Assembly: GCA_025359505.1 (NCBI GenBank) | Contig: JANYHH010000039.1 | Span: 1 to 52,744 of the forward strand | Length of the DNA stretch: 52,744 bases | Reading direction: 5' to 3' | Source of the DNA: Deinococcales bacterium | GTDB taxonomy: Bacteria > Deinococcota > Deinococci > Deinococcales > JAAFIG01 | In this document: positions 1 through 52,744 of the stretch, one piece after another | How the letters are laid out: every line of letters starts with the position of its first letter | How positions within the stretch are numbered: position 1 is the first letter of the stretch | Program-made: the position numbers and the translations under genes | Notes under the pieces: model-generated | Told to the model about the DNA's origin: nothing | Seen by the model: only the letters and a program-made list of their open reading frames with translations | The model's database searches: none

Positions 1-1
1 C

Positions 2-21
2 GGCGACCCGATTGGGTCGCC
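2..21 (-). terminator. Intrinsic terminator-like hairpin
   Basis: A perfect 8-bp inverted repeat (ggcgaccc / gggtcgcc) with a GATT loop lies about 22 bases past the stop codon of the minus-strand gene that ends at 44. A T-tract on the minus strand would fall outside the window, so the terminator call rests on the stem and its position only. Confidence 0.55.
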
Positions 22-43
22 ACGTACTCACATTGCTCCCGCG

Positions 44-958
44 TTAATCGCGGCGCTTGCCGAAACCGTGATCCTTGCGGCGGGCAAACCCACTGCTCTC
101 ACCGCTGGGACGATCACTTCGAGGGCTGGGGCGCTCGCCCGCGCCGCGTGGCTCGGATGGGCGGCTGTCGCGGCTGAAGCTGCTGGTCACGCGGTCTGTG
201 CCGCCGAAGCGCGGGCGATCCCCGCTCGGACGGTCGGAACCGCTGGGGCGCGAATCGCGGTTGGCGCTTGGGCGCGAGTCGCTGCCGCCACCGAAACGTG
301 GACGGTCGGAGCCACCGCTGGGGCGGCTGTCACGGTTGAAGCTGGGTCGGGAATCGCCACCCCCAAAACGCGGACGGTCGCCGCCACCAGATCGGCTGTC
401 GCGGTCGCCGCTCGGACGATCACCGCTGGGGCGCGAATCGCGGTTGAAGCTGGGTCGGCTGTCACCGCCACCGAAGCGCGGTCTCGAGGAGGAATCACCG
501 CCCCCAAAACGTGGTCGGTCGCCACTCGGGCGGTCGCCGCCGCCAAAACGAGGACGATCACCGCTGGGGCGCGAATCGCGGTTGAAGCTCGGGCGGCTGT
601 CGCGGTCAAAGCGCGGGCGCTCGTCGTCACCGCGTGGTGCGGCCCGTGCGGGCGCTTCAGCGGCTTTCTCCAGTTTCTTCTCTAATTTCCTGACAATCGT
701 TGTCAGCTCTTCAATGCGGGCGGTCAGCACGCCGAGTTGAATCTCGATGCCGCTGACCGCTTCCTCGTCAAGCCCAGCCGCTTCCTCGTCAGAAGCCAGT
801 TCGTACTCGTTCTCCTCGGCTTCCTCGAGCATCAGCGCTTCGTTGGTTTCGAGTCGCTCCATCTCGAGCTGCTCGGTGGATTCAGCGCCGATCTCCAGAC
901 TATCGTCTTGCAAGTCGGTCTCATCGGGGATTGAATCGGTTTTCTTCTTGCGTGGCAT
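44..958 (-). CDS. Low-complexity Arg/Gly-rich repeat protein
   Basis: This encodes a 304-residue protein of unknown function. Residues 1-65 are strongly acidic. Residues about 66-103 form a heptad-like amphipathic stretch (ARIEELTTIVRKLEKKL) that should be a short coiled coil. From about residue 104 to the end it consists of irregular repeats of units such as RPRFGGGD and SRPSFNRDSRPSG, closing in a basic tail (GFGKRRD). The repeats resemble RGG/RG-type RNA-binding or phase-separating tails, which suggests a disordered nucleic-acid-binding protein; that is inference. The DNA from about 110 to 620 is internally repetitive, so repeat number may vary between strains. ATG at 958 is preceded by a weak purine-rich AGAAAGAGAG. 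Confidence 0.75.
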   Translation of the reverse strand: MPRKKKTDSIPDETDLQDDSLEIGAESTEQLEMERLETNEALMLEEAEENEYELASDEEAAGLDEEAVSGIEIQLGVLTARIEELTTIVRKLEKKLEKAAEAPARAAPRGDDERPRFDRDSRPSFNRDSRPSGDRPRFGGGDRPSGDRPRFGGGDSSSRPRFGGGDSRPSFNRDSRPSGDRPSGDRDSRSGGGDRPRFGGGDSRPSFNRDSRPSGGSDRPRFGGGSDSRPSANRDSRPSGSDRPSGDRPRFGGTDRVTSSFSRDSRPSEPRGAGERPSPRSDRPSGESSGFARRKDHGFGKRRD

Positions 959-1496
959 ACATCTCTCTTTCTCTTCTGCGCTGACTGTTCTGGAGTCGAG
1001 CGCGATGTGGTTGAAACGTGAATTGAGCGCGGGATATCATCAACACACCGCGCTAAGTCTCAACGGACGCGCACCTTTGGCGGGTGCGGCAGCAGAGCAT
1101 CATAGCGTAAAACTGGCTCGAGCGTCTGAAAGCTCGAGGCGGGCAAAAGTTGGAGTGGTGGATCGTCATGTTGTTGTCGTCCGCACGTTGCACGGGCGAG
1201 GCGTGCGTCGAACCCATGTTCGCGAAGCGAAACGCCCCTACGGGGATGATAGCAAATGCCTGTGTAGAACACGGTTTTTTGTAGGGGCGAACCTTGTGTG
1301 TCTTGCCCCGACTACAGCACCTTCTTGATCCTAACCGTGCACCTTGCGGGCAGGATCGCTTACGGGCTTGGGCGCTTCGCCCGGTACGACAGGCAGCCAA
1401 CCTAAGCAAATCTCGAGATTCAGACTTTACGCTTACCGTGAGGCTCGAGGTGATGGCGTGCGGTTCATGGTTCACGCGCTCATCACAGTGTCACCC
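959..1496. other. Intergenic region with repeat pieces, no gene
   Basis: I find no convincing gene in these 540 bases. The short open frames on both strands lack recognisable protein character and start signals. From about 1201 to 1345 the region holds inverted and degenerate copies of elements also found at 22727-22892, and a pair of facing CCCCTAC/GTAGGGG blocks. Those are listed separately. Confidence 0.6.
1200..1345. repeat. Dispersed intergenic repeat, copy 1
   Basis: Two blocks here match the region 22727-22892 in opposite orientation. The block around 1200-1234 (with gtcgaacccatgttcgcgaa) is the reverse complement of about 22727-22760 with few mismatches. The block around 1321-1344 (cttcttgatcctaaccgtg) is the reverse complement of 22793-22816. 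Between them, CGCCCCTAC at 1233-1241 faces GTAGGGGCG at 1281-1289, a 9-bp inverted repeat that matches the ends of the hairpin family seen at 20437, 44489 and 52491. Confidence 0.65.
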
Positions 1497-2435
1497 TCAA
1501 GACGCCACGCGGGGCGGCACTTTGTGCGTCTCGAGGTTCAGCCACGCGACTTCCAGCGGCTCGAGGTGAATCTCTAGCGCCCGGAACGAACTGGCGGTTT
1601 CGGCTTGGCTGCGCGGGCCGATCAGTGGGAAGGTCGTGAACGGTTGGTGCAACACATACGCGAGCGTGACGTTGATCGCTTCCACACCCAGCGAACCCGC
1701 CAGCGCCTTTGCTCGCTCGAGCCGCTGGAAATTCTGGGCGTCGTACCAGCAGCGCACCAGTTCAGGGTTGCTGGTGTCGCTGGCGTTGCCCGCCACGAAG
1801 AAGCCTCTGGCTTGCGATGACCAAGGCATCAGCGCGATTCCTTCACGCTCGAGCCAGCTCGGTTGATCGGCGTCGTTGCTCGAGACGCAACCGCTCCAGA
1901 CGGGTGACAGCATCTTGGCGAGGCTGAACTGATTGGAAATCAGTGTGATGCCGCGCAAGCCGTGAACAGCCGCGTACTGATTCGCGGCGATCATGCGCTC
2001 CAAGCTCCAGTTGGACACGCCGAAGATCCGCATTCGTCCCAGCGCGTGCTGCGCGTTCAGTGCATCTATGAATTCGCCGACGGGCACGTCCGGGTTGTCG
2101 CGGTGCATCATGTAAACATCCACGAAATCGGTTTGTAGGCGCTCCAAGCTGACCGTCAGTTGCGCCCCAATCGCGGCTGGGTTGCAGTTGGGCGTGTGTG
2201 CGCCTTTGCCGAGAATCACAACTGAATCGCGCAACCCTCGCTGCTCGAGGTACGCGCCGAGCAGCGTCTCGCACTGACCACCGCCGTAAACGAATGCGGT
2301 ATCGAACGCGTTGCCGCCGCGCTCGAGGTAATCGTCCAGCAGCGGTGCAAGTGTTTCAAAGTCGACTTGATTGTCCACGCCCAGCACCAGCCTCGAGACG
2401 GATTTTTGTAGACCCGCGACGGAGCCGTAGATCAC
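1497..2435 (-). CDS. Aldo/keto reductase
   Basis: This is a 312-residue NAD(P)H-dependent oxidoreductase of the aldo/keto reductase superfamily, cytosolic with a TIM-barrel fold. The catalytic set is visible: Asp45 in FDTAFVYGG, Tyr50, Lys77 in VVILGKGAH and His111 in YMMHRD. The segment MRIFGVSNW is the usual barrel strand after the catalytic His. Its length is normal for the family. The GTG start at 2435 overlaps the TGA stop of the upstream short-chain dehydrogenase by four bases (GTGA), so the two are probably translationally coupled and may act on related carbonyl substrates. The actual substrate cannot be read from the sequence. Confidence 0.9.
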   Translation of the reverse strand: MIYGSVAGLQKSVSRLVLGVDNQVDFETLAPLLDDYLERGGNAFDTAFVYGGGQCETLLGAYLEQRGLRDSVVILGKGAHTPNCNPAAIGAQLTVSLERLQTDFVDVYMMHRDNPDVPVGEFIDALNAQHALGRMRIFGVSNWSLERMIAANQYAAVHGLRGITLISNQFSLAKMLSPVWSGCVSSNDADQPSWLEREGIALMPWSSQARGFFVAGNASDTSNPELVRCWYDAQNFQRLERAKALAGSLGVEAINVTLAYVLHQPFTTFPLIGPRSQAETASSFRALEIHLEPLEVAWLNLETHKVPPRVAS

Positions 2436-3286
2436 GCCAGTCCTGCGATGCGCTCACTCTCGAGCCACAGGCGCTCCTGCGCGTCGCGGTCTTGGGTTGC
2501 GGCACTTGCCTTGGCGATGCGCTTATCGTTCCAATACGCGCCCGTCACGCCTTGCACCGCGTCGCTCGAGGCCAGATACACGCTGGTTTCAGCACCGCGC
2601 TCTGGGGGGATCATCGCGCCGGGGATCAAGCGCAGCAGTCCAAACAGCCATTTCCACGGGCCCGTGGAGCTTTGCGCGAAGCCCGTGGCGACCACGCCCG
2701 GATGCAAGGCGTTGGTGACGATTTTCGTCCCCTCGAGCCGCCGTGTGAGGGCGTTGCTGAAGAGAATATTCATCAGCTTGGATGTGCCGTAAACGGTCAT
2801 ACCGGAGAAACTCTTCAGGCTTTGCAAATCCTCAAAATTGACGCGCCCGTAACGGTGCGCCTCGCTTGAGACATTGACGACTCGAGCGGCTGGGGCGGCT
2901 TTAAGTTCCTCCAGCAACAGGTTCGTTAGTAAGAAGTAATTCATGTGGTTCAGCGCAAACGTCTGCTCTAAGCCCTCGCTGGTCACTTTGCGCTCGGTGA
3001 AGATCGCGCCTGCGTTGTTGACGAGCACGTCCAACGCACCAACGCGAGATTTGACTTCTTCCGCCAACTTGCGCGTGTCGGACATCAAGCTCAAATCTGC
3101 CAGCAGCAGCTCGAGGTTCGCGTCTGGTACGGCGCGTCGGATCTCCTCGAGCGTGGCTGCGCCTTTGCTGGGATCGCGGGCGACCAGCAGCACCCGAGCG
3201 CCCATTTTCGCCAATTCCAAAGCCGTGATCTTGCCGATGCCGTTGGTCGCGCCCGTCACGAGGACGGTTTTTCCGGTCATGCTCAT
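2432..3286 (-). CDS. Short-chain dehydrogenase/reductase
   Basis: This is a 284-residue Rossmann-fold NAD(P)-dependent oxidoreductase. It shows the cofactor motif TGATNGIG (residues 11-18), NNAG (90-93), the catalytic Ser near 140 (NVSSEAHRYG) and the Tyr166-x3-Lys170 pair (YGTSK). The spacing and the RVNFEDL segment after the catalytic Ser resemble the retinol dehydrogenase/protochlorophyllide reductase-like branch. It is the first gene of a two-gene unit with the aldo/keto reductase. Only 26 bases separate its start from the divergent VOC gene. On the minus strand TAACCT ends seven bases before the ATG, so the mRNA may be leaderless. Substrate unknown. Confidence 0.9.
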   Translation of the reverse strand: MSMTGKTVLVTGATNGIGKITALELAKMGARVLLVARDPSKGAATLEEIRRAVPDANLELLLADLSLMSDTRKLAEEVKSRVGALDVLVNNAGAIFTERKVTSEGLEQTFALNHMNYFLLTNLLLEELKAAPAARVVNVSSEAHRYGRVNFEDLQSLKSFSGMTVYGTSKLMNILFSNALTRRLEGTKIVTNALHPGVVATGFAQSSTGPWKWLFGLLRLIPGAMIPPERGAETSVYLASSDAVQGVTGAYWNDKRIAKASAATQDRDAQERLWLESERIAGLA

Positions 3287-3293
3287 AAGACAC

Positions 3294-3299
3294 AGGTTA
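3294..3299 (-). promoter_or_regulatory. -10 box, leaderless SDR-AKR unit
   Basis: TAACCT on the minus strand lies seven bases before the ATG at 3286, with no room for a ribosome binding site. It sits in the 26-base gap shared with the divergent VOC gene. Confidence 0.4.
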
Positions 3300-3312
3300 C
3301 TCGAGAATTATC

Positions 3313-3993
3313 ATGAGCACCGCGATGCGAATTCGGCAATTGACGCTCCAAACCGCCGACTGTGAAACGCAGAGCGCCTTTTACCGCGACCTGCTCGAGT
3401 TACCCGTCACGCAAGACGACTCGAGTTTGACTGTGCAAGTCGGCTCGAGCGAATTGCGGTTTGAATCCCACGCGGGCTTTGAGGGGCAGTATCACGTCGC
3501 TTTCGATGTCCCCAACAATCAGTTCGCCGCTGCCGTCGCGTGGCTCGCGGCTCGAGCGGCGATTTTCGGCGCTGAGCGCGTGTATCACGTCGATAACTGG
3601 AACGCCGACAGCGTGTATTTTCTGGATGCGGCTGGCAACATTTTGGAGCTGATCGCACGGCACACCGCCAATACTGCCCGCACCGCTGCGTTTTCAGCCG
3701 CGAGTCTGCTGCACATCTCCGAGATCGGACTGAGCGCTCCTAACCCGCTCGAGTTATCAAATTGGCTGGAGGTGCAGTTCGGCTGGCGAAAATACCGCGA
3801 TCACTCCCCCGATTTCGTTCCCTTCGGTGACGATCACGGCGTGCTGATCCTCGTGGCAAACGGGCGCGAGTGGTTCCCCGCGACGGGCGTTCGCGCCGCG
3901 CCGCTGCCAACGCAGGTCACGCTCGAGGGGCAAAGATCGGTGACGCTGAACGTCCCCGGTTTGCCGTATCAGATCAGCTTGAGCGAGCGCTGA
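3313..3993 (+). CDS. VOC (glyoxalase/dioxygenase fold) protein
   Basis: This 226-residue protein carries a vicinal-oxygen-chelate module in its first half, with the family's opening strand (RIRQLTLQTADCETQSAFYRD), YHVAFDVP in the third strand and ILELIAR at the end of the module near residue 115. The second half (about 130-226) begins again with HISEIGLSAPNPLELSNWL and looks like a second, diverged module. Together they form the usual pseudo-symmetric two-module unit of this family. Candidate metal ligands are the His of YHVAF and the Glu of ILEL. Family members include lyases, dioxygenases and resistance proteins, and nothing here fixes the reaction. It is divergent from the SDR-AKR pair and just upstream of an EamA transporter. 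Confidence 0.8.
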   Translation: MSTAMRIRQLTLQTADCETQSAFYRDLLELPVTQDDSSLTVQVGSSELRFESHAGFEGQYHVAFDVPNNQFAAAVAWLAARAAIFGAERVYHVDNWNADSVYFLDAAGNILELIARHTANTARTAAFSAASLLHISEIGLSAPNPLELSNWLEVQFGWRKYRDHSPDFVPFGDDHGVLILVANGREWFPATGVRAAPLPTQVTLEGQRSVTLNVPGLPYQISLSER

Positions 3994-3999
3994 TACACT
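3994..3999 (+). promoter_or_regulatory. -10 box, leaderless EamA gene
   Basis: TACACT directly follows the stop codon of the VOC gene and ends seven bases before the GTG at 4007. This supports both that start codon and an independent leaderless transcript. Confidence 0.5.
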
Positions 4000-4006
4000 C
4001 CACCCT

Positions 4007-4897
4007 GTGACTCGAGTTGCCCCGCGCACACTAGCGTTTTGTTTGATGGTGCTGGTCACGGTGCTGTGGGGCAGCACGTTCCCGCTGGTCAAAGCACTGG
4101 TCGCTCAAGTCTCGCCAGCGTTGATGCTGGCGGCGCGGTTCACGATCGCGGCACTGGTGCTGCTGCCGTGGTTGCGGCGTGCCGGTAAGCAACTCTGGCT
4201 CGAGGGGGCGCTGCTGGGCGGCGTGCTGTTTGCCAGTTACTGGACGCAAGCGATTGGTATGACGACGATTCCCAGTGGTCGCGCCGCGTTCATCACGGGC
4301 CTCAACGTGATCCTCGTGCCGCTGATGCTGCCGTTCCTGAAACGCCGCGTGCCGTGGCCCGCATTTGTGGCGGCGGCATTGGCGCTCGGCGGAATCGGGC
4401 TGATGAGTTTGAACGGCGTGACCCTCGAGTTCGCGTGGGGCGACCTGTGGGTGCTGGGCTGCGCTTTTGCTTACGCGGTCTACATTCTGCTGGTGGATCG
4501 CGCCGTGACGCGCCACGCGACGCTGCCGCTCGCAGCGGTGCAAGTCACGGTTGTTTGCTTGCTTGGCTGGCTGACCGCCGCACCAGAGATCATCGGCGGC
4601 TCGAGCCTGTCTGCGCTGCTCGAGTTCTGGCCGCAACTGGTCTTTCTGGGCGTGATGGCGACCGCGCTGACGACGCTAATGCAAGCTTACGCGCAGCGCT
4701 TTTTAGCCGCGTTCCAGATCGCCACATTGTCCGCCCTCGAGCCGGTCTGGGCGGCGATTTTTGGGTTTTTCCTGCTGAGCGAGCATCTGTCCGAGCGTGG
4801 GTTGATTGGCGCTGGTCTGATTCTCGCGGCCATGGTGTTGTCGCAGTTTGACCCGAAGCCTGTGAGAGCGCTAGAGAATGTGCAGGAGCGCGTTTAA
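4007..4897 (+). CDS. EamA/DMT-family transporter
   Basis: This is a 296-residue inner-membrane protein with about ten predicted helices arranged as two EamA repeats (residues about 8-140 and 148-283). The first repeat contains VLWGSTFPLVKALV and the characteristic GLNVILVPL segment. The second ends with ALEPVWAAIFGFFLLSEHLS, a hallmark of drug/metabolite exporters. Length is typical. These proteins usually export small metabolites or amino acids by proton antiport; the substrate here is unknown. The start is a GTG seven bases after a TACACT -10 box. It follows the VOC gene by 13 bases, but the promoter suggests it is also transcribed alone. Confidence 0.9.
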   Translation: MTRVAPRTLAFCLMVLVTVLWGSTFPLVKALVAQVSPALMLAARFTIAALVLLPWLRRAGKQLWLEGALLGGVLFASYWTQAIGMTTIPSGRAAFITGLNVILVPLMLPFLKRRVPWPAFVAAALALGGIGLMSLNGVTLEFAWGDLWVLGCAFAYAVYILLVDRAVTRHATLPLAAVQVTVVCLLGWLTAAPEIIGGSSLSALLEFWPQLVFLGVMATALTTLMQAYAQRFLAAFQIATLSALEPVWAAIFGFFLLSEHLSERGLIGAGLILAAMVLSQFDPKPVRALENVQERV

Positions 4898-4945
4898 CCT
4901 CGAGTACCGCAGGATCTGAACGCCTCGAATCCCAAGCCTCGAGAC

Positions 4946-4976
4946 TTGACAAAAACGCTACTCCTAGTGGTATTCT
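4946..4976 (+). promoter_or_regulatory. Promoter of the nrdJ leader
   Basis: A perfect -35 TTGACA (4946-4951) is followed after 19 bases by TATTCT (4971-4976). Transcription would start near 4983, giving a 5' leader of about 240 bases before nrdJ. Confidence 0.55.
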
Positions 4977-4992: not shown

Positions 4993-5090
4993 ATGTTGTT
5001 TCAAACTTCATTCGGAGTACATGATTCAGAACCCTCGCCCGCAACCTTTGGAGGGCGGCGCTTGGGACGCACATCTTAAGAGGAGAACCC

Positions 5091-5223: not shown

Positions 5224-8214
5224 ATGACCGCAACGCTCGAGACTGCCCAGACCGCGTACACCTTCGATGACCACGCCCAGTCGATCGCCAAACGCCAATA
5301 CCTGCAAGCCAGCGACGGCGACGTGCAAGGCATGTTCAAACGAATTGCCAACTGGGTCTCGAGCGCGGAAGCTACGCCAGAACTGCGCGTCAAGTGGGGC
5401 GCGACGTTCTACGATTTGATGGCCAGTAAGCGCTTCTGCCCCGGCGGGCGCGTGCTGGCCGGCGCGGGTACGCAGCACGGCAACGTGCTCAACTGCTTCG
5501 TGCAAGGCGCGACTGAGTTTGAACCCAGCAGCTTTGAAGGCGTGATGGAAGTCGCCAAGAAACTCGCGCTCGTCACCAAAGTCGGCGGCGGCAACGGCGT
5601 GAACTTGGATGTCTACACGCCTCGAGCCGCGACGGCCCGCCCCGACGCAGGCGTGCGCGGCTGGGCATACATGAGCGCCGATCACAAAGACGTCGAGGAC
5701 TTCATCAAGGGCTTGATGCGCCCACCGACGATGCCCGACGGCGAAAAAGTCCCGACCGTGATCCGCAACTGGAACAAAGTCATTTACGGCATCGTCCCCT
5801 CGAGCGTGGCTGCACTCGCCCGTCAATACGGTGTGACATTGACCGCCAGCCTGCCCGCAGGCGTGGAAGCCGTCAACGACGACATGGGCAGCATCATCGA
5901 CGCCGCCAAAGCCGTCTGCGCCCAAGCTAAGCAGGGCCTCGAGCCGCGCATTGATGTCACGCCGCTGCGAGCCGAAGGCGCACCGATCAAGGGTAGCGGC
6001 GGAACCTCGAGCGGGCCGGTCAGCTTCCTGTTTGAAATCTTTGACAATTTCCTCGAGTGGGCGAATTTGGGCGCGGAACAGAGCGGCCCCGTCGCCACAT
6101 TGCGCTACTGTTACTCGCCTGTCCTGCGTGTGGTACGTCAGGGCGGGACGAGGCGTGGGGCCGGGATGGCCACAATCAGCATCGACCACGCCGACGTGCT
6201 GGACTTCCTGACCGCCAAGGATCTCGACCGTGAGCAGGGTGAGGGCGACATCAGCACCTTCAACATCTCGATCCTCGCCACCGACAAATTCCTAGCGACG
6301 CTCGAGAACGATGCGCTTTGGGCTTTGAACCCGCTCGAGGTGATGGGCAAGTATTACGTCGCGCCGCAGACGGGCGAGTACACGGGCACGCTGCCGATGC
6401 TCGAGGCAAGGGGAGCGGATGGGGCGAAAGCCGTACCGCTGTACACTGGCGGCGTGCCCGCCAAGTGGCTGTGGCGGCAGATCGCCGAACACGCGTGGAG
6501 CACTGGGGAGCCGGGACTGATCTTCAACGATCGCGTCAACGAGAAAAGCGCGATTGCTGGGCTTGGGGAAAAGTACATTATCAAGTCCACGAATCCCTGT
6601 GGTGAGATCCCGTTGACGGTTGGCGAACCGTGCGACCTCGGTGCGATCAACTTAGCCGCTTACGTGCAGGACAAGCAATTTGACTTTAAAACCTTCCGCC
6701 ACGACGTGCGCGACACGATCCGCTTCCTCGACGACGTGCTGGATGTCAACGTCTTCGCGCTTGAGGATAACCGCGTGGCATCGCAAAACCTGCGCCGCCT
6801 CGGGCTGGGCGTGATGGGCTTGGCGGACGCCTTGATCCTGATGGGGCAGCGCTACGACTCTTCAATTGGGCGCGACACGATTGACGCGATCATGAGCGCG
6901 ATGCGCGAAGAGGCGATCCTCGAGAGCGAAAAGCTCGGCAACGAGCGCGGGCATTACCCCGTGTATCTCGAGCACGCCAGCCAGATGCCGCACGCGCCGC
7001 GCCGCAACGTCGCCGTGCTGACCGTCGCGCCGACCGGCACGACCAGCATGTTGATGGGCGTCTCGAGCGGGATCGAACCGATTTTCTCGCCGTTCATCTG
7101 GCGCAAAATCGGCGCGGAGTACAAAGCCCTGATCGCGCCATTGTTCCAGCAACTCTTGGAGGAGTACCCCGCGCACCCCGCCTACGCCCGCGATGGACGC
7201 TGGGATTGGGATAAGGTCACGGACGCGCTGAGCGGCAATCACGGCAGTTGCATCGGTCTCGAGTTCGTGCCGGACGCAGTGCAGAGCGTGTTCGTCTGCT
7301 CGCACGACATCGCGCCGCTGGATCACGTGCGGATGCAGGGCGTCGTGCAACGGGCGTTCGACGCGGAAGGCTACGCCGCCAACAGCCTGTCGAAGACGAT
7401 CAACATGCCCAACAGCGCGACCGTCGAGGACATTGAAAGCGCGTACACCGAAGCCTTCAAAACCGGTTGCAAAGGCATCACGGTTTACCGCGACGGCAGC
7501 CGTCAATTTCAGGTCTTGTCCGTCAGCAAAGACGAGAAGAAGGACACTGAGCAGGAAACGGACGCCTCCTCGAGCCTCGAGATTCAACACGTGCCCAGCG
7601 TCTCCAACGAATCCAATTGGCACGCGACCAGCACGTTCCAACCCGGCAAGCCGCTGATGGAACGACCGAGCCGACTGACCGGCGTGACCGATATGGTCAA
7701 ACTGACCGATCTGGCGGCTGGCACGAAGCGCACGTTCCTGATTACCACCAATACGTTTGAAAATAAGCCCGTCGAGATCGTCGTCGTCTCGGGACGCGCT
7801 GGCGACGAAGCCAACGCCGACAGCGAAGCGCTGGGGCGCGTCGTCAGCATCGCGCTGCAATACGGCGTGCCGGTCGAAGCGATTCAAAAAACCCTGCGCG
7901 GCATCAACGGCGGACTGTACGGCAGTTACAACGGTCGCCTCGTGGCCAGCAAAGCCGACCTAATCGCCGTCGCATTGGAAAGCACGGGCGGTTCACCTAG
8001 CGGCGCGTTCAAACCCGCCGAGCAACCGCTGCTCTACCCGAGCCTGATCGGAGCCGCCCCGAGCGGTGACGAGCTGCAACTCCCGCTCGAGCCGAGCTGG
8101 AACGCGAGCGTCACGATGAAGGGCGAGACTTGCCCGAGCTGCTCGAGTCCGAATCTGGTGCGCGAAGAGGGCTGCTTGAAATGCCAGAGCTGCGGCTACA
8201 GCAAATGCGGGTGA
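5224..8214 (+). CDS. nrdJ: Adenosylcobalamin-dependent ribonucleotide reductase
   Basis: This is the 996-residue class II ribonucleotide reductase, which makes deoxyribonucleotides using a radical generated from adenosylcobalamin and so works with or without oxygen. It shows the first redox Cys in NVLNCFVQGA, the active-site block TNPCGEIPL, GLGVMGLADAL, and PTGTTSMLMGVSSGIEP. A C-terminal tail has a zinc-finger-like set of Cys pairs (CPSCSSPN, CLKCQSCGYSKCG) that should re-reduce the active site. The length fits an NrdJ with C-terminal extension, and I see no intein. AGGGGG precedes the ATG by seven bases. Expression is probably controlled by the attenuator-like leader at 4983-5190. No class I RNR gene is in the window. 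Confidence 0.96.
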   Translation: MTATLETAQTAYTFDDHAQSIAKRQYLQASDGDVQGMFKRIANWVSSAEATPELRVKWGATFYDLMASKRFCPGGRVLAGAGTQHGNVLNCFVQGATEFEPSSFEGVMEVAKKLALVTKVGGGNGVNLDVYTPRAATARPDAGVRGWAYMSADHKDVEDFIKGLMRPPTMPDGEKVPTVIRNWNKVIYGIVPSSVAALARQYGVTLTASLPAGVEAVNDDMGSIIDAAKAVCAQAKQGLEPRIDVTPLRAEGAPIKGSGGTSSGPVSFLFEIFDNFLEWANLGAEQSGPVATLRYCYSPVLRVVRQGGTRRGAGMATISIDHADVLDFLTAKDLDREQGEGDISTFNISILATDKFLATLENDALWALNPLEVMGKYYVAPQTGEYTGTLPMLEARGADGAKAVPLYTGGVPAKWLWRQIAEHAWSTGEPGLIFNDRVNEKSAIAGLGEKYIIKSTNPCGEIPLTVGEPCDLGAINLAAYVQDKQFDFKTFRHDVRDTIRFLDDVLDVNVFALEDNRVASQNLRRLGLGVMGLADALILMGQRYDSSIGRDTIDAIMSAMREEAILESEKLGNERGHYPVYLEHASQMPHAPRRNVAVLTVAPTGTTSMLMGVSSGIEPIFSPFIWRKIGAEYKALIAPLFQQLLEEYPAHPAYARDGRWDWDKVTDALSGNHGSCIGLEFVPDAVQSVFVCSHDIAPLDHVRMQGVVQRAFDAEGYAANSLSKTINMPNSATVEDIESAYTEAFKTGCKGITVYRDGSRQFQVLSVSKDEKKDTEQETDASSSLEIQHVPSVSNESNWHATSTFQPGKPLMERPSRLTGVTDMVKLTDLAAGTKRTFLITTNTFENKPVEIVVVSGRAGDEANADSEALGRVVSIALQYGVPVEAIQKTLRGINGGLYGSYNGRLVASKADLIAVALESTGGSPSGAFKPAEQPLLYPSLIGAAPSGDELQLPLEPSWNASVTMKGETCPSCSSPNLVREEGCLKCQSCGYSKCG

Positions 8215-9344: not shown

Positions 9345-9391
9345 AAATAACGTATTGAAATTTTGAATATAAGATGATTCTTAAGGAGAAT

Positions 9392-10498
9392 ATGAAATCA
9401 AGTTTGCAAGATGAAATTGACAAGAATGCAGCAAAAATAGCAACAGATGGTTATCCTATGTCGTTAGGAGAACTTATAAATCTATATGAGAATAAAGAAA
9501 TAGATATTCATCCTGAATTCCAAAGGTTTTTTAGATGGTCATTGATCCAAAAATCAAGATTGATTGAATCTATAATGCTAGGTATACCAATTCCATCTAT
9601 ATTTGTAGTCCAAAGGGAAGATGGAGTATGGGATGTTGTAGATGGCTTGCAACGGCTATCAACTATTTTTGAATTTGTTGGAATATTAAGAGACCCCAGC
9701 GAGGAGATTTTACCTCCTTTACGCCTCGAAAGCACTCGATATCTCCCATCGTTAGACAAAGTTTTGTGGCAAAACTCGTCCAACACAAATTCCTTTTCGC
9801 CAGCCCAAAGACTTCTACTCAAAAGAGCTAAGTTAGATGTAAAAATTTTAAAATCTCAGAGTTCACCAAATACGAAATACGATTTATTTCAGCGCCTTAA
9901 CTCTGGAGGAACGGCTCTCTCAGACCAAGAATTACGAAATGGAATGTTGGTCGGCTTAAATAAAGCATTTTATGATATGATTGAGGAGTTAAGTCAATAC
10001 TCGAGCTTTGTTGAATGTACCTTCTTGAGTGAGAATCAAATTGTAGAAAGATATGATATGGAGCTTGTGCTTAGATTTATTGTTTTTAGATCTTTATCTG
10101 ATATTGATAAGATTAATTTAGGTGATTTAGGTAGTTTTGTTACTGAGAAAATGCTTGAACTTGCTCAACTGACTGATTTCAATTTCAATCTAGAGAAAAC
10201 TGTGTTTAAATTCACATTCGACAAGCTGGCAAGAGCTCTTGGAGAAAATAGCTTCAGGAAATTTGATAAAGTCAAAAAGAAATTCCTTGGAGGCTTTACT
10301 GTATATGGATTTGAATCAATTGCACTTGGGATTGCATTCAACTATCTGAAATTTAAATACACTGACGAAAAAATAGTTGTAAAAGTGAAAACAATTTGGT
10401 CAGAAAGAGAAGATCTGGGGTTTTCAAGCAGTGGTATGAATGCCTCACAGAGACTTAAAAAAGTATTACCTTATGGGCGCAAGGTGTTCAAAACTTGA
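9392..10498 (+). CDS. DUF262 domain (ParB-like) defence protein
   Basis: This is a 368-residue DUF262 protein with the family's ParB/Srx-like NTPase/nuclease motifs: PEFQRFFRW (FQR at 43-45), SRLIESIMLGIPIPSIF, and DVVDGLQRLSTIFEF (DGLQR at 84-88). The second half is helical. I find no DUF1524 HNH domain, so it is a stand-alone DUF262 protein rather than a GmrSD fusion. AAGGAG at 9383-9388 precedes ATG 9392, which I prefer over an in-frame ATG at 9374 that has no ribosome binding site. The gene is far richer in AT than its neighbours and nearly lacks CTCGAG, which indicates recent transfer. It overlaps the HEPN gene by four bases. A role in phage defence is inferred from the family and the partner. 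Confidence 0.82.
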   Translation: MKSSLQDEIDKNAAKIATDGYPMSLGELINLYENKEIDIHPEFQRFFRWSLIQKSRLIESIMLGIPIPSIFVVQREDGVWDVVDGLQRLSTIFEFVGILRDPSEEILPPLRLESTRYLPSLDKVLWQNSSNTNSFSPAQRLLLKRAKLDVKILKSQSSPNTKYDLFQRLNSGGTALSDQELRNGMLVGLNKAFYDMIEELSQYSSFVECTFLSENQIVERYDMELVLRFIVFRSLSDIDKINLGDLGSFVTEKMLELAQLTDFNFNLEKTVFKFTFDKLARALGENSFRKFDKVKKKFLGGFTVYGFESIALGIAFNYLKFKYTDEKIVVKVKTIWSEREDLGFSSSGMNASQRLKKVLPYGRKVFKT

Positions 10499-15742: not shown

Positions 15743-15817
15743 GCACTGACTTTACTATACTCCGAGTTATCAATAGTAATGACTGAGACGCTGCCGCTCG
15801 AGATTGTGTGGCACGCT

Positions 15818-16048
15818 TCAAGGCAGTTCATCCCCGCGCAATGGTGTGTCGCTGGGAACTTTGGCGAGCACATCTAAAAACGCGGCGCTCGAGCCTCTAC
15901 GCGCCCGCTCGAGCAGCAGCGTTTCAGTCTCGAGCGCTGAGAGTTTTTCAGCGACGGCTGTACTGACGAGGCTGATCCCTTCTCGAGCGGCGATCAATCG
16001 CAAACGTTTGTGCAAAGCATCTTACAGTCGAATCTCGAGCGTAACCAT
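15818..16048 (-). pseudogene. Ribbon-helix-helix antitoxin broken by an in-frame stop
   Basis: On the minus strand ATG 16048 opens MVTLEIRL, the typical first beta strand of a ribbon-helix-helix antitoxin. It is followed at once by TAA (16024-16022), and then in the same frame by DALHKRLRLIAAREGISL and a tail ending LAKVPSDTPLRGDELP, as in intact family members. One base change from a Lys, Glu or Gln codon to TAA explains it. A shorter protein might restart at TTG 16015, but it would lack the DNA-binding strand. No toxin gene is adjacent, so the module seems to be decaying. Confidence 0.7.
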
Positions 16049-16138
16049 GTCGTGAGCATAGACCAGATTGGCTCGAGACTCGCAGGTTTACTCGAGCGAA
16101 GGAAGGGATTTCAGGATTGGCTCGAGCGGCAAAAGAAG

Positions 16139-16165
16139 AGCCCCCCGCAACCTGCGCGGGGGGCT
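16139..16165 (-). terminator. Terminator of the slpA-like gene
   Basis: A 10-bp perfect stem (agccccccgc / gcggggggct) with a seven-base loop lies 19 bases beyond the S-layer stop codon. On the minus strand it is followed by CTTCTTTT. It is the strongest hairpin in the window, as expected for a highly expressed gene. Confidence 0.85.
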
Positions 16166-16183
16166 TGCTCACCACAAGTTTGT

Positions 16184-19100
16184 TTAGAACTTGAGGCTGT
16201 ACTTGATGCTGAACGCCTGACCGAAGGTCACGCGACCAACGGCTGTGCTGCTGGCGAACGTCAAGTCCGTCAGCGCGAAAATACCGTAGTTGAAGTCCAA
16301 GCCGTAGTAGCTGAACTGGAAGTACAGACCGCTGAGGTTGGTGCTGACGCCGAGGGTATCACCGTCGAGGGTGTAGACGCTCGTGCCGGCCCAAGTGTCG
16401 TTACCGACCGGGCTGCTCAAGCTTGGGCCAGCGCCGCGACCTTCGCGGTTCTGATCCGTGCGGCTAGCGAAGGCGACCTTGAAGGTGCTTGGCGTGCCGA
16501 AGATGCTTGGGTTGAACGCGAGGCTGGTGCTGAACCAACCGGTGCTCGAGGTGTACGCGCCGACCGAGCTACCGCTGTGGCTGCTTTGATCGAGCGCACC
16601 AGCGAGGCTGATCGTGCTGCCGAAGATGAAGCCGCCACTGATGGACAGAGCGCCACCGTAGTTGGTCACATCGTCGTTGGCATAACCGTTACCAGTGTTG
16701 AAGGTAGTTCCGGTTGTGCTGACCGTGCTGAAGTATGCCTTTGGCGCGATGGTGAAACCAACCAAGCTGATCTTCGTGTCTGCGTAGGCATACAGAGTGG
16801 TTTTGCCGTCAGCGTTGAGACCGTTGGTCTCGCCGAGGTAGCCCAAGGCAAGATTGAAGTTGCCGATTAGTGCATCGGGCTTGCTGCCGTCGTGCGTAAG
16901 CTTGACGCCGTAGGTCGTGCGGTCATAAACGGCCGTGCCGTTTGCAAAAGTCTCGTTCTGACGGGTGACGAATGGTGCAATGTCAAAACCGATCAAACGG
17001 ATCGTCAGATCGACACCAAAATCGGTTTCGCTGTTGACGATATTTGTGGTCACGACATCATCACCTTGAGTGTCACTCTTTGGACCGTTGCCAACAGAAA
17101 CACCGGGATTCTGTGCAGTGCGTTGATCGTAGTAAGCATTGACTTTTGCAAAGCCCAAGTTGATACCAAGGTCAATACCGAAGCCGCGCTGGTTGAGCTT
17201 ATACGGGCCGTCGTTGACGCTGATGCCATTGCGCTGCGAGAAGTCGTTGTCGATCACGCGGTAGTTACCAGCGATGGTGAAGATCGCAAGATCGACGTTC
17301 GCTTTGACGAAGCCAGCCACTTGTGCAGGTGATCCGTCTGGAATGCTGACGTTGTACTCGCCGCTGAGCGTGATCGGCCCCAAAGCGCCGCCGAAGTTCA
17401 AACCAAACAAATTGACGTTCGCTTGTGGGTTGGTAACAATGTCATAAGACTCGAGACCGTAGTAGATGCCGCCAGTGAAACCGGGGATCAATGAAGCTGT
17501 GCCACGGAAGCCAGTGTAGTAGCGGTTCAAGTTAGTATCGCCTGCGACATCAAGACCGCTGGTCGAACCGTAAGCAATCGTCAGCGCCAAGTTCAGCGGC
17601 AGTAAACCAGCGCCGTCTAAGGTAGCCACGAAGCCGTCGCCGCGACCATTGTTGTCGCCAGCGTTGTTGAAGCCGTACTCCGTGAACTTGAAGGCTGGGT
17701 TAATACCGAAGTTGATCAGCAGCGGAGCGCCGCCAACCGTGTACTTCGTTTCCAACTTTGTCAGCTTCAGTACCACTGGGTTAACGGAATCACTACCATC
17801 GCTGGGCTTACCATAGTTACCCGAAGACTCGAGACTCAGCGTTAAAGCAACCGAGAAGCTGTTGCCAACGCCGTTGGTGGTTCCACCGACCAAAGCGCGT
17901 GGCTTGAACGTGAAGTTCAGGCTGATACTTGGATCGAAGTTACCCTCGACGCGAACGCCCACTGGTGCTTTATTCAACGCATTGACGCGCAAGTTAGTAA
18001 TACCAAACGTCGGAGTCAATGTGCTGACACCGATGTCGTTTGCAATGTCATTGGCTGTGTTGGCGCTGGTAGAGCCGAAATCGCCGTAATCAGATGGCTT
18101 ATCATCGCCATTGTCGTCGTTGTTAACCTCACCCGTGGTGAATGGCGAGCCGAAGTACAAGCGGTCAACGTCGAAGTTGAAACCGTTACCGCCGCTATTA
18201 CCGTCCCATGTGGTGGCGCGGTAGTAGTTCAATCCCAGCGTACCGCTGACGATGAAGCCGTTGTTCTCCAAAACCGTGACGCGGCTCTCGACGCCCGTGA
18301 TGCGGGTTTCGACAGCTCCGACGCGGCTTTCCAACTCGCCGACGCGATCAGCCAAGGCGGTCTGGTCGCGTCGCAGCAGCGTCGTGAACTCGCGCAGGCT
18401 GTCCAGATCGTCTTGCGTGGCAAACGTTGCCAGCGCGTCTGCGGTGGCGGCGTTGCCGTCGGCAACTTGACGCTCCAAGTCGGTGACGCGATCTTGCAGG
18501 CTCAGCACGTCTTGGTTGAGCAGTACAACCAAATCGTTCAGCGCAGCGATGCTGTCGGCTTGACCTTCAACGGTCGCGCCGATCTCGCCGAGCTGACCTT
18601 CCAAATCGTCGACGCGACCGCTGAGTTCGTCAACCTTGTCTTGCAGCTCGCGGGCTTGGGCCAGCGCGGTGTCGGCAGCGATGCTGGCGGCTTCGACTTG
18701 ATCGGTCAGGTCGCTCAGGGCTCCCGGATCGATCATGCCACCTTCGCCGGTGGTCGCGGTCTGGTTGGCTAGTGCTTCGGCGAGGTCGCGGGCTTCTTGG
18801 GCGATCTCTTCGACGCGGGCCAGATCGTCTTGCGTGGCGAAGTTGCCAACGTCAGTGCCACCAGCGGCCGCTGCTTGCTCGGCGAGGTCGCGGGCTTGCG
18901 TGGCGATCTCTTCGACGCGGGCCAGATCGTCTTGCGTGACCGCGTTGTCTTCCAGTTCAGCGACGCGCACACCCAGTTGGGCGAGGTCGGCGCTGAGTTC
19001 TTGGACGGCGTTCTCTAAGGCGGTCAGGTCGGTCGGCGTCATCGTGCCGACCGTGCCGGGCTTACCGGGCAGTCCGCACTCGCCGTTCTTCACTGCGTCG

Positions 19101-19384
19101 AGCAAGCGGGCGATGATCGCGGCCGCTTGGTAACGCGTGACGGGTTCGTTGCCACGGAAGGTTCCGTCTGGGAAGCCACGGATGATCCCGCAGTTTTGAG
19201 CGACTTGAATCGCGGCCGATGCCCAGTGTCCAGCGGGCACGTCCTTGAGTTCAACTGGCTTCTGGTTCTGGGCTTGGCCGGTTGGAGCGTCCACCTGACC
19301 CGTTGGGTTGGTGGTCTGGGCATACGCGGATACGCCCAAGCTCAATGCGGCTGTGAGAAACAATGCAGCGGAGACTTTCTTCAT
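16184..19384 (-). CDS. slpA: SlpA-like S-layer / outer-membrane protein
   Basis: This 1066-residue envelope protein has four parts. Residues 1-22 are a signal peptide ending AYA. One SLH domain (about 43-100, with LKDVPAGHWASAAIQ, GIIRGFPDGTFRGNEPVTR) should bind the secondary cell-wall polymer. A long coiled coil (about 105-365) contains two near-identical DDLARVEEIA blocks. The region from about 370 to the end has alternating hydrophobic strands and closes with SIKYSLKF, a C-terminal Phe as in outer-membrane beta-barrels. This matches Deinococcus/Thermus SlpA, which links cell wall and outer membrane. It has its own promoter, a leader of about 200 bases and a strong terminator. CTCGAG is rare in it (three sites in 3.2 kb). 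Confidence 0.92.
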   Translation of the reverse strand: MKKVSAALFLTAALSLGVSAYAQTTNPTGQVDAPTGQAQNQKPVELKDVPAGHWASAAIQVAQNCGIIRGFPDGTFRGNEPVTRYQAAAIIARLLDAVKNGECGLPGKPGTVGTMTPTDLTALENAVQELSADLAQLGVRVAELEDNAVTQDDLARVEEIATQARDLAEQAAAAGGTDVGNFATQDDLARVEEIAQEARDLAEALANQTATTGEGGMIDPGALSDLTDQVEAASIAADTALAQARELQDKVDELSGRVDDLEGQLGEIGATVEGQADSIAALNDLVVLLNQDVLSLQDRVTDLERQVADGNAATADALATFATQDDLDSLREFTTLLRRDQTALADRVGELESRVGAVETRITGVESRVTVLENNGFIVSGTLGLNYYRATTWDGNSGGNGFNFDVDRLYFGSPFTTGEVNNDDNGDDKPSDYGDFGSTSANTANDIANDIGVSTLTPTFGITNLRVNALNKAPVGVRVEGNFDPSISLNFTFKPRALVGGTTNGVGNSFSVALTLSLESSGNYGKPSDGSDSVNPVVLKLTKLETKYTVGGAPLLINFGINPAFKFTEYGFNNAGDNNGRGDGFVATLDGAGLLPLNLALTIAYGSTSGLDVAGDTNLNRYYTGFRGTASLIPGFTGGIYYGLESYDIVTNPQANVNLFGLNFGGALGPITLSGEYNVSIPDGSPAQVAGFVKANVDLAIFTIAGNYRVIDNDFSQRNGISVNDGPYKLNQRGFGIDLGINLGFAKVNAYYDQRTAQNPGVSVGNGPKSDTQGDDVVTTNIVNSETDFGVDLTIRLIGFDIAPFVTRQNETFANGTAVYDRTTYGVKLTHDGSKPDALIGNFNLALGYLGETNGLNADGKTTLYAYADTKISLVGFTIAPKAYFSTVSTTGTTFNTGNGYANDDVTNYGGALSISGGFIFGSTISLAGALDQSSHSGSSVGAYTSSTGWFSTSLAFNPSIFGTPSTFKVAFASRTDQNREGRGAGPSLSSPVGNDTWAGTSVYTLDGDTLGVSTNLSGLYFQFSYYGLDFNYGIFALTDLTFASSTAVGRVTFGQAFSIKYSLKF

Positions 19385-30847: not shown

Positions 30848-32686
30848 TTACTTCATGACGATGACTTCTTTTTGTCCCTTTTGCTGCCAGCCGACGAGCC
30901 AACCCAAAGCGCTCGGGTAGCGGGTCGCGGCGTTCCACGTGTAGTTACGCAGACCCGTGCGGGCCGTGTAGAGATCGGTGCGCTCGTAAAGCGGGATGGC
31001 GGGCAGTTCCTCGTTCCAGATTTTTTGGGCTTCGGCCAGCAGCTTTTTGCGGGCGTCCAAGTCAAACTCGCGGCGGGCTTGATCCCAGAGTTTGTCGTAA
31101 GCAGCGTTGCACCAACCGCCGATGTTCTGACCAGCGAAGCCGTTGGCCGACGTTGGCACGTTGTCCTTGACGGTTTTGCTGGCTGGGTCTTCGCAGTAGT
31201 ACGTGCCTAAATCCTCGGTCAGCGGTTGCTGCACGTAGGCGAATTGGAACACGCCTTTCCACTTGCCGCTGCTGGCTTGCGCGATGAAAGCATCATCGAA
31301 AACGACGCTGCTCGGTGCGTTGTTGAAACGCACGTCGATGCCGACTTTCTTCAAATTATCTTTGTAAAGCTGCTGGTCACGCTCGCGCACCACGTTACCA
31401 GCGGTGGTGACATACTCCAAAACAAATTTGACGGTTTTTCCGCCAACGGTGCGTTCCATGATGCCGTCGCTGCCAGCCTTCCAGCCCAGTGCGGCCAAAA
31501 GCTGCTTGGACTTTTCGGGGTTATAGCCGTAATTGGTCAGGCCCTGCGTGCTGTAAACGCTGGCCACAGAATTGACGAAGTTGTTGGTGACGACAGCCGT
31601 ACCGCCGCGCAGATCACGGGCGCTGGTTTCACGATCCAGCGCGTAGATTAGCGCTTGGCGGGTGCGTTTATCCTGAAGTTGCAGATCGGCCACTTCCGGC
31701 ACGCTTTGATCGAATTGATTGATGTCCAAATGTTCCCACAGCGCGGCCTTTGGCGTATAGACGCTGTACACGCCTCTTGCGGCCGCTTTCAGGGTTTGCA
31801 CGGTCGTGGCGCTGGCGACCAGTCCGACGCTCGAGGTGGCGTCCACTTGCCCGGCCAACACGTTGACTTGTAAGGTGTCGGTTTTCTGGAAGAAGCGGTA
31901 GACGATGCGATCGACGCTGGTTGGGTTGTTGTTCCAGTAATTGGCGTTACGCACCAGCGTCCAGCTCTGATCGCGCTGCCATTTGGAAAACTTGAATGGC
32001 CCCGAGGTCACGACTGGCCCCTGACGACTGGTGAAGAACGGCGCGGCGAGGAATTCCTTTTGCAGGATCTCGATTTGCTGCTCTTTGGACTTGCCGACCA
32101 GTAGAGCTTTGGCACGCTCCCAAAGCGGCTTGATGATGTGGGCTGGCGGCACGTAGTTCTGGACGAGTCCCTGCGAAACCGTGGCAAACAGGTACGGTGG
32201 GTCGTAGGTGAGTTCAAAGCTGTTGGCGTCAATCGCTTTGAAGGTTTTTGGGTAATTGTCGCGGCTGGCTACGGGCAAGCGCTCGTCACCGAAAACCTCG
32301 TAGGCAAACCTGAAATCCTCGGTGGTGATCGGGCGACCGTCAGACCATTTGAGGTTGGGCTTCAAGTTCCAGCGGATCGTCTGCGCGATCACGTCGCCGG
32401 CCGCGTTTTTCGTGAGTTTGATGCCGCCGTTTTTCTCGGTCGGGACTTCGGCCGCTAGGTCGGCTTGGATGTTGCCGTTCTGATCAAAGTACGTTAGACC
32501 CGCATGCAACCACGAGTTGACTTCAGCGCTGATCGCCTGATTGTTGACGTATGGATCAAGTTGCGTGGGCTGCTGGGTCGTCCCCAGTACCAACGAGTTG
32601 TCCGTCGGGCCCGCGAGGGCTGCGCCGGACAGTGTTGCACCGGCAAGGGCGAGCGCACCTAAAGTCACCAAGAATTGCTGCTTCAT
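30848..32686 (-). CDS. Peptide-binding protein of an ABC importer (SBP family 5)
   Basis: This is a 612-residue extracytoplasmic solute-binding protein of family 5 (DppA/OppA-like). A signal peptide covers about residues 1-25 (LGALALAGATLSGAALAG). Typical segments are TTQQPTQLDPYVNNQAIS, IRWNLKPNLKWSDGRPITTEDFRF and ALIYALDRE. No lipobox Cys is seen, so it is probably periplasmic or surface-held in another way. A strong ribosome binding site (TAGGAGG) precedes ATG 32686, and a perfect terminator follows. CTCGAG occurs only once in 1.8 kb. High expression is likely. It delivers peptides to the two permeases encoded just downstream. Confidence 0.92.
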   Translation of the reverse strand: MKQQFLVTLGALALAGATLSGAALAGPTDNSLVLGTTQQPTQLDPYVNNQAISAEVNSWLHAGLTYFDQNGNIQADLAAEVPTEKNGGIKLTKNAAGDVIAQTIRWNLKPNLKWSDGRPITTEDFRFAYEVFGDERLPVASRDNYPKTFKAIDANSFELTYDPPYLFATVSQGLVQNYVPPAHIIKPLWERAKALLVGKSKEQQIEILQKEFLAAPFFTSRQGPVVTSGPFKFSKWQRDQSWTLVRNANYWNNNPTSVDRIVYRFFQKTDTLQVNVLAGQVDATSSVGLVASATTVQTLKAAARGVYSVYTPKAALWEHLDINQFDQSVPEVADLQLQDKRTRQALIYALDRETSARDLRGGTAVVTNNFVNSVASVYSTQGLTNYGYNPEKSKQLLAALGWKAGSDGIMERTVGGKTVKFVLEYVTTAGNVVRERDQQLYKDNLKKVGIDVRFNNAPSSVVFDDAFIAQASSGKWKGVFQFAYVQQPLTEDLGTYYCEDPASKTVKDNVPTSANGFAGQNIGGWCNAAYDKLWDQARREFDLDARKKLLAEAQKIWNEELPAIPLYERTDLYTARTGLRNYTWNAATRYPSALGWLVGWQQKGQKEVIVMK

Positions 32687-49691: not shown

Positions 49692-52421
<2,730 letters not shown>

Positions 52422-52436: not shown

Positions 52437-52477
52437 CAGCGGCTCGAGCAGATTGCCTCGAGCTGCTGTTTGTTTTT
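52437..52477 (+). terminator. Terminator of acnA
   Basis: CAGCGGCTCGAG (52437-52448) and CTCGAGCTGCTG (52457-52468) form a twelve-base stem with one G-T pair and an eight-base loop, followed by TTTGTTTTT. Both arms contain CTCGAG, as in the icd terminator. Confidence 0.85.
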
Positions 52478-52490
52478 AACGGCAAGGGCA

Positions 52491-52551
52491 GGGTTTGCAG
52501 TGGCAAACCCCTACGGAAAATGTGGGTGTGGGGACACGCAGTGGCGTGTCC
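52491..52551. repeat. Two hairpin-family elements in tandem
   Basis: GGGTTTGC, loop AGTG, GCAAACCC and then CTACGG (52491-52516) is followed by GGACACGC, loop AGTG, GCGTGTCC (52532-52551). The first matches the element at 44489; the second keeps the GC-AGTG-GC centre with a different stem. Confidence 0.65.
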
Positions 52552-52567
52552 TGCTCAGGGGGTTGCG

Positions 52568-52609
52568 ATGATCGAGCGTTTGCATCACGTCAATATCAGC
52601 GTCCCCTAA
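52568..52609 (+). pseudogene. VOC-protein gene cut after 13 codons
   Basis: ATG 52568 opens MIERLHHVNISVP, the standard first strand of a vicinal-oxygen-chelate protein, and meets TAA at 52607. The next residue in relatives would be D or N followed by a helix; nothing of this follows in any frame. The gene is therefore interrupted or fused to unrelated DNA at about 52606. Confidence 0.6.
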
Positions 52610-52744
52610 CTACTGGACAGAAGTGGGATCACGTCGTCCAGCACGAGCCTCCCAGCGCACCCAGATAACAAGATTTGCCGCAACGTATCCAACCCCACCC
52701 TGAACACGCTCCTCGGCGGTGACCCGTTCTTCTTCAACGCAATC
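52610..52744. other. Unassigned DNA at the window edge
   Basis: The last 135 bases contain no CTCGAG and follow a broken VOC gene. One frame is open to the window end on each strand. An inserted element is possible, but I recognise no transposase motif or terminal repeat. Confidence 0.4.

Follow-up and report, generated by a model that had tools for sequence, protein, structure and literature searches.

CTCGAG sites and genes of the window

We analyzed contig JANYHH010000039.1 of a Deinococcales bacterium (assembly GCA_025359505.1; genome G000 below), whose whole length of 52,744 bp is called the window here, and characterized its copies of the palindrome CTCGAG. The window (1..52744) contains 314 sites (5.95/kb, mean spacing 166 bp) spread over its full length, with 95% of the gaps shorter than 480 bp. 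As comparisons, 100 dinucleotide-preserving shuffles gave 19.6 sites (standard deviation 4.5, maximum 32), while the expected counts were 16.4 from base composition, 19.8 from an order-1 Markov model and 25.5 from an order-2 model. These shuffles and expectations rule out chance or base composition as the source of the excess. An order-4 model predicts 251 sites, a number that is uninformative because the site's own pentamers are already in the model. When hexamers are ranked by order-1 excess, CTCGAG is first among the 64 palindromes and among all hexamers (z = 66).

The same excess is found throughout G000, which comprises 4,230,927 bases in 127 contigs, is 92% complete and was read in detail over 16% of its length. 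It carries 27,118 copies of CTCGAG (6.41/kb) versus 9 copies of the mirror word GAGCTC. The first-pass annotation had described CTCGAG as a highly iterated palindrome (HIP) on the basis of 36 sites in bases 1-5000 and 18 sites in acnA. Our recount reproduced both numbers, and the counts in the window and the genome lie far above the Markov expectation, which for the window is about 20.

The 18 sites of acnA (aconitase; 49692..52421, + strand; 6.6/kb) lie in a gene that 96 of 101 genomes, G000 itself counted, match at E <= 1e-100. A ribonucleotide reductase gene (5224..8214, + strand) also carries 18 sites (6.0/kb); its closest plasmid matches carry the annotation adenosylcobalamin-dependent. 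Within it, two sites are only 7 bp apart (7569..7581), which is the closest spacing in the window and occurs four times (at 7569, 20353, 26860 and 39790). A gene matching the restriction-type family GmrSD_N (9374..10498, + strand) has one site, at 10000, and our guess is that it arrived recently.

The S-layer protein gene SlpA (16184..19384, - strand; 3 sites in 3.2 kb) is the most significantly site-poor among 602 sampled genes, and the spacer downstream of it (15743..16183) holds nine sites in 441 bp (15797, 15888, 15908, 15929, 15982, 16034, 16072, 16091 and 16121). A family 5 solute-binding protein gene (30848..32686, - strand) has one site in 1.8 kb. Many of the next most site-poor genes of G000 look periplasmic or secreted, and genes of this kind would encode abundant proteins under codon selection. 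Among the G000 genes longer than 900 bp, 4 of 265 lack any site (0.35 expected). Six tRNA genes contain none in 458 bp, too few genes to judge. Searches of the S-layer protein against phages and of a permease against plasmids gave no match.

Independence from coding and limits of the word

Genes were called with a home-made caller that missed 4 of 14 methyltransferase genes; therefore, the spacers contain some uncalled coding DNA. The 45 called genes of the window have 123, 33 and 57 sites in frames 0, 1 and 2, with 101 more sites outside them, in agreement with the earlier claim that all three frames are used. In a 625-kb sample of G000 with 547 called genes, the corresponding counts are 1906, 434 and 700, each above those obtained from 50 synonymous shuffles (449, 15 and 68). 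Leu-Glu pairs in these genes are 2.46 times as frequent as residue frequencies predict, with 1906 of 2858 spelled CTC GAG, and Ser-Ser pairs are 1.57 times as frequent. Therefore, the DNA word has entered protein sequence.

Between genes, where an excess had also been claimed, it was found to be large. The 376 spacers of G000 (61 kb) contain 734 sites (12.0/kb) versus 15.0 expected, a 49-fold excess; this expectation was calculated with sites masked and strands pooled, and it becomes 30.3 without masking, a treatment effect of about 2-fold. Pooling the spacers of four genomes of the same family (G000 to G003) gives 1,177 sites versus 22 expected (54-fold). Spacer densities are 7.1/kb in G001, 5.7/kb in G002 (87 sites versus 1.1 expected) and 5.9/kb in G003 (86 versus 1.4), compared to 5.8 and 5.9/kb in the genes of G000 and G001 and to overall densities of 5.95 and 5.97/kb in G002 and G003. 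Spacers of 20–200 bp have the same or higher densities (14.8, 9.2, 6.5 and 6.6/kb for G000 to G003), and in G000 the tandem, convergent and divergent spacers contain 14.3, 14.8 and 9.9 sites/kb. A proposed link to terminator stems was not borne out: the palindrome extends no further than the hexamer in 79% of the sites that lie outside genes and in 81% of those within them.

Codon-pair or dipeptide usage would generate such an excess from within genes, and frame 0, which reads Leu-Glu, is indeed the most frequent coding frame. The synonymous shuffles refute this explanation, as do the enrichment of the other two frames and the excess in spacers, and we give it practically no credence.

We then find that the word ends sharply. 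In the spacers of the four genomes, where CTCGAG itself is enriched 54-fold, its six transversion-neighbor classes occur at 0.75–1.15 of expectation and its three transition neighbors at 1.99, 2.24 and 2.04, about equally at all three positions. The transition neighbors may have arisen through decay of sites, or may have weak function themselves. In whole sequences, genes included, neighbors range from 0 to 4 fold. No neighbor is consistently depleted as a feeder, which excludes a single mutational channel. The bases flanking intergenic sites scarcely depart from background, G being slightly favored at -4 and slightly disfavored at -3 in all four genomes; therefore, the unit is the 6-mer, and the octamer GCTCGAGC is ruled out in that role. 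The flank preference described in the first-pass annotation is thus present in the window as counts (GCTCGAGC at 67 of 314 sites; GCTCGAGG/CCTCGAGC, one motif on two strands, at 90 of 314) but largely disappears between genes. Across G000, GCTCGAGC occurs 3,827 times (0.90/kb) versus 3 copies of its mirror. A sharp limit of six bases would be more typical of type II enzymes than of a nucleoid protein or a regulator.

Spacing between sites is nearly exponential (mean gap 153–168 bp genome-wide; coefficient of variation 1.01–1.05). Gaps shorter than 20 bp are fewer than the exponential prediction (223 versus 386 in G000, 83 versus 235 in G001), although this prediction contains some impossible overlaps. 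In spacers, the shortage of close pairs (6–9 bp) is weak, with 24 versus 38 in G000 and 0 versus 7 in G001.

Relatives, site turnover and candidate enzymes

We counted sites in 86 whole genomes that are at least 90% complete. Family f1, made up of G000 to G003, consists of metagenome-assembled genomes (MAGs) that are 91–94% complete, and it is uncultured as far as we have seen. Its genomes contain 27,118, 28,178, 27,159 and 26,619 sites, respectively, and G012 of family f2 contains 21,868, while GAGCTC occurs 4–25 times in each of the five. In samples of G000 to G003 the order-1 excess is 23, 48, 97 and 69 fold. Densities in G001 to G003 and G012 are 5.9–6.3/kb at a sampled G+C content of 44–51% (44–59% with G000 included). 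Elsewhere the counts are graded, with 13,552 and 683 in G008 and G004 of f2, 509–12,737 in f3, 1,390–6,655 in f4, and, in f5, 3,329–11,982 in genus g13 and 1,443–2,513 in genus g7, which is presumably Thermus. Related genomes therefore span a gradient from about 0.3 to more than 6 sites/kb.

In smaller samples (4–24 kb) from 20 genomes outside f1, CTCGAG mostly ranks at or near the top; G004 shows no excess, and some f3 genomes show little. G016, from the same genus as G012, reaches 10.8/kb in the 8 kb sampled. G008 is uneven: one 20-kb stretch has 11 sites versus 11.8 expected, yet the genome has its 13,552. Larger samples of G025 (which we take to be Meiothermus ruber), G009 (presumably Truepera radiovictrix) and G008 show an excess that is weaker than in f1 and present in several contexts: in spacers (17 versus 1.7, 17 versus 3.9 and 33 versus 5.1 expected, respectively), in frame 0 (307 versus 95, 229 versus 150 and 482 versus 132), in frame 1 (23 versus 1.4, 5 versus 0.7 and 3 versus 0.9) and in frame 2 (26 versus 7.9, 33 versus 10.5 and 74 versus 17). 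Among the sampled loci, repeat arrays occurred in G025 and G009 only, including an array in G009 (L299:4068-7569) with up to 58 copies that resembles clustered regularly interspaced short palindromic repeats.

Other DNA gave lower or less specific counts. Three Deinococcus plasmids, which may not represent their chromosomes, have 18, 12 and 5 sites versus 42, 17 and 23 (order-1) or 23, 8 and 16 (order-2) expected. On an Oceanithermus plasmid there are 133 sites versus 31 expected, but its GAGCTC count is likewise raised (83 versus 28.5). In 66 loci of at least 12 kb titled as other phyla (among 77), there are 244 sites versus 314 expected, and the highest single locus is at 2.4-fold. Some G+C-rich viral contigs of unspecified host (for example L330 and L370) are also dense in CTCGAG, with 57 sites and no GAGCTC in the 9.7 kb of L370. 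They come from at least 120 loci with a triple CTCGAG, 76 of 120 being examined, and allow no inference because they were chosen for the motif and their host is not known.

Comparing orthologues shows how sites come and go. Orthologues were taken from the sampled stretches of G000 to G003 (11–30 gene pairs per genome pair). Over the six genome pairs, the shared fraction of sites is 0.34–0.57, compared to 0.09–0.22 for control hexamers of equal G+C content. At Leu-Glu pairs conserved between G000 and G001, a site occurs with probability 0.66 opposite an orthologous site (n = 142) and 0.65 opposite a pair lacking one (n = 74). Sites are thus lost and then regained at a similar frequency; therefore, the force seems active, and in more than one lineage. 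Leu-Glu pairs at sites and elsewhere differ in no consistent way in their conservation.

We searched for an enzyme that could read the word, using Pfam families PF00145, PF01555 and PF07669 in 101 genomes, PF02384 in 21 and PF02086 in 14. All-versus-all comparison of 47 open reading frames (ORFs) from the first four families (14 from G000, 7 from G001, 5 from G002, 11 from G003, 9 from G012 and 1 from G062) revealed no methyltransferase orthologue spanning G000 to G003, several weak or long matches being left out of the comparison. Identity above 45% over most of the length was confined to the pairs G000_C3 with G012_C303, G000_C21 with G012_C113 and G000_C51 with G001_C57a, a group of C5 enzymes in G002, G003, G012 and G062, and the paralogues G000_C17 and G000_C29. 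G000_C51, sought in 18 genomes, had three matches, counting itself and a weak one. PF02086 (D12, Dam-like) matched in 8 of 14 genomes, including all of f1 and G012. The Dam-like ORFs G000_C111 (L307) and G001_C6 (L433) are 58% identical and G003_C246 is unrelated to both; this comparison left out G002, G012, G025, G075, G009 and second copies in G000 and G001, and a wider D12 group may exist. Matches to PF02086 in G025 and G075 score similarly to G000_C111 and G001_C6.

The best single methyltransferase candidate in G000 is, we think, the gamma-class G000_C34. Its C-terminal half resembles M.BseCI, BseCI recognizing ATCGAT, and none of the family ORFs compared is closely related to it. A beta-class methyltransferase is conserved in the f5 genomes G077, G079, G085 and G099 (G099 being 68–91% identical to the others), and no compared f1 enzyme comes near it. 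The XhoI-family nuclease PF04555 had no match in G000, but neither did any of 14 control genomes match. At L037:10663-11533 in G000, two adjacent ORFs match the first and last parts of one alpha/beta hydrolase family, with a C5 methyltransferase beside them.

G000 also carries restriction-modification gene pairs, in which one methyltransferase adjoins a PvuII-type nuclease (L040:8825-10670) and another a BanI-type nuclease (L041:7799-10509). In accord with such systems, CAGCTG (5 versus 236 expected) and GGCGCC (1 versus 499) are avoided in G000, and GGTACC is avoided likewise. Strong avoidance extends to many other palindromic hexamers, mainly G+C-rich (GCGCGC, 8 versus 1441 in the 697-kb sample), and probably reflects heavy restriction pressure. 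When the samples of G000 to G003 are pooled, AGCGCT (1.5–2.7 fold in each) ranks second among palindromes by enrichment, unlike TGCGCA, GGCGCC and CGCGCG, which are mostly avoided in these samples. Relief from such avoidance is insufficient on its own to explain CTCGAG, which stands 23–97 fold above the order-1 expectation.

A proposed DNA-level force and its comparison with known systems

The excess of CTCGAG is independent of coding, has nearly exact limits of 6 bp, follows a phylogenetic pattern and regains its frequency after turnover. In our favored explanation, to which we give an even chance, a Deinococcota clade carries CTCGAG as a HIP-like element, held at about 6/kb by a continuing DNA-level force that has rewritten part of the proteome. 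The force keeping the word would act on DNA, and not on codons or proteins. Its reader would be a palindrome-specific DNA enzyme inherited within the clade and having a type II-like specificity, possibly an orphan methyltransferase so far unrecognized, or a repair or recombination nuclease. Sites could accumulate by weak selection on each one, or by repair or recombination biased towards the site, as proposed for HIP1.

Several measurements weigh against this explanation. Frame-1 sites are shared between G000 and G001 at only 0.089 (n = 45), below the control value of 0.161. In the other five genome pairs, the probability of a site is 0.77–0.93 where the orthologue has one and 0.57–0.71 where it does not (n = 5–42 for the latter; for example 0.90 versus 0.62, n = 104 and 16); therefore, descent contributes. 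The roughly 2-fold excess of transition neighbors lies at the 97th to 98th percentile of 840 control hexamers in spacers, and a simple selection equilibrium on the exact site predicts none. In whole sequences of G012, transversion neighbors are raised too (ATCGAG, 20 versus 5.0). The spacers of G002 and G003 (up to 600 bp) are not denser than genes, at 5.7–5.9/kb. Finally, no reader was found in the families searched, other families lying outside the search and the f1 MAGs being 91–94% complete; the missing shared methyltransferase counts because a lasting force would be expected to have a lasting gene behind it.

Instead of a methyltransferase, an old and vertically inherited recombination or repair enzyme (RuvC, another resolvase or a nuclease) could have brought the word near saturation in one family and one further genus and reshaped the proteome there, a reading that we consider unlikely. 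If true, HIPs would arise generally from recombination or repair enzymes with sequence specificity, and not as a by-product of methylation. More specifically, the clade's Holliday-junction resolvase may cut a TC-containing tetranucleotide, perhaps CTC|G. No hexamer but CTCGAG presents CTC|G on the two strands at a single point, and dense symmetric sites would place a target for resolution in either direction within some 150 bp of a junction. This model yields the palindromicity, the 6-bp length and the absence of flanks, and the D. radiodurans RuvC prefers 5'-(G/C)TC|(G/C)-3', which covers CTC|G, whereas EcRuvC, TtRuvC and PaRuvC reportedly prefer (A/T)TT|(G/C) (PMC9601230); the small excess in genus g7 fits this difference. 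However, the other consensus words are not enriched (GTCGAG/CTCGAC at 1.04 in spacers, GTCGAC at 0.05–0.56), CTCGAG is not abundant on the three Deinococcus plasmids, though plasmids may differ from chromosomes, and the Synechocystis RuvC prefers TG|(G/A), which leaves HIP1 unexplained (PMC11063404). The sampled loci included two true RuvC genes, both on KSB1-like MAG contigs, and none from Deinococcota. RuvC appears improbable, a weaker though testable rival to a type II-like enzyme.

A functionless mutational context bias or a by-product of gene conversion, such as a repair enzyme that turns near-sites into CTCGAG, would predict the highest density under the least constraint. This is seen in G000 and G001 (12.0 and 7.1/kb in spacers) but not in G002 and G003. 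The enriched transition neighbors also fit, yet no single channel feeds the site and the exact 6-mer must still be read, so that this origin seems quite unlikely. A nucleoid protein, or another protein of chromosome structure, that binds CTCGAG throughout the chromosome would be consistent with the genome-wide spread of the word and with the deficit of gaps below 20 bp, but the spacing is otherwise near-exponential, the close-pair shortage in spacers is weak and the graded flanks that are usual for such proteins are nearly absent; we regard it as doubtful. There is similarly only a slim chance that CTCGAG is a DNA-uptake signal, favored by competence or by processing after uptake and driven up by recombination. 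Thermus and Deinococcus are often naturally competent, but uptake signals are longer than CTCGAG and occur about once per kb, compared to about 6/kb here. Known signals are over-represented both within and between genes, as CTCGAG is, and are thought to spread by molecular drive, but they are not palindromic (PMC1939737).

The favored explanation, a HIP-like element under a continuing force, would provide a case that is independent of the cyanobacterial one, denser, from a different phylum and graded among relatives, so that the methylation model becomes testable by comparison. Cultured relatives (Meiothermus and Oceanithermus) permit experiments, and a DNA word here writes itself into protein sequence. 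Searches of open-access full texts listed no paper whose title or opening lines of abstract describe genome-wide CTCGAG over-representation in Deinococcota, with subscription papers and preprints outside the scope of these searches.

Among known systems, the XhoI and PaeR7I restriction-modification systems share the recognition word CTCGAG. Restriction-modification sites are commonly avoided (PMC4687349), whereas CTCGAG is over-represented in G000. The nearest precedent that we have seen for the word itself is a Nocardia orphan methyltransferase, which recognizes CTCGAG and for which a role other than restriction has been proposed; its sites cluster near dnaA and the origin (PMC4752239), while those of G000 are everywhere. 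The RuvC consensus of D. radiodurans shares with CTCGAG the cleavable CTC|G on both strands at one point (PMC9601230), and differs in that the other words fitting it, like the three plasmids, show no enrichment. The DNA uptake sequences of Neisseria and Haemophilus are likewise short words over-represented in genes and spacers (PMC1939737), without the palindromic form or the density of CTCGAG.

The closest likeness is to HIP1 (GCGATCGC) and the alternate HIPs of cyanobacteria, which are short, GC-rich palindromes, grossly over-represented and clade-specific with exceptions (PMC4390886). HIP1 has been in print since at least 1995 (a reference in PMC1939737), and its origin is still explained by models only. 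In Elhai's model of growth by biased repair, a site-specific methyltransferase and methyl-directed repair are needed and the density reaches a plateau at about 1 site/kb; a HIP1 methyltransferase is generally present, with exceptions that Elhai notes (PMC4390886). The analogy suggested in the first-pass annotation holds in form (a palindrome, genome-wide, in all frames and in coding and non-coding DNA, clade-specific and under a DNA-level force), while the link to a solitary methyltransferase, for which no enzyme was found across f1 among the 47 ORFs and the D12 ORFs compared, may yet hold. CTCGAG differs from HIP1 in its word, its phylum and its 6-bp unit, and no specific methyltransferase was found to accompany it among the ORFs compared. 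Its near-sites deviate by transitions at all positions, whereas those of HIP1 deviate mostly at the ends. The hexamer occurs at about 6/kb versus about 1/kb for HIP1 octamers in most cyanobacteria, a density matched in G000 by the octamer GCTCGAGC at 0.90/kb. CTCGAG is thereby HIP-like outside the cyanobacteria, and it is denser than HIP1.

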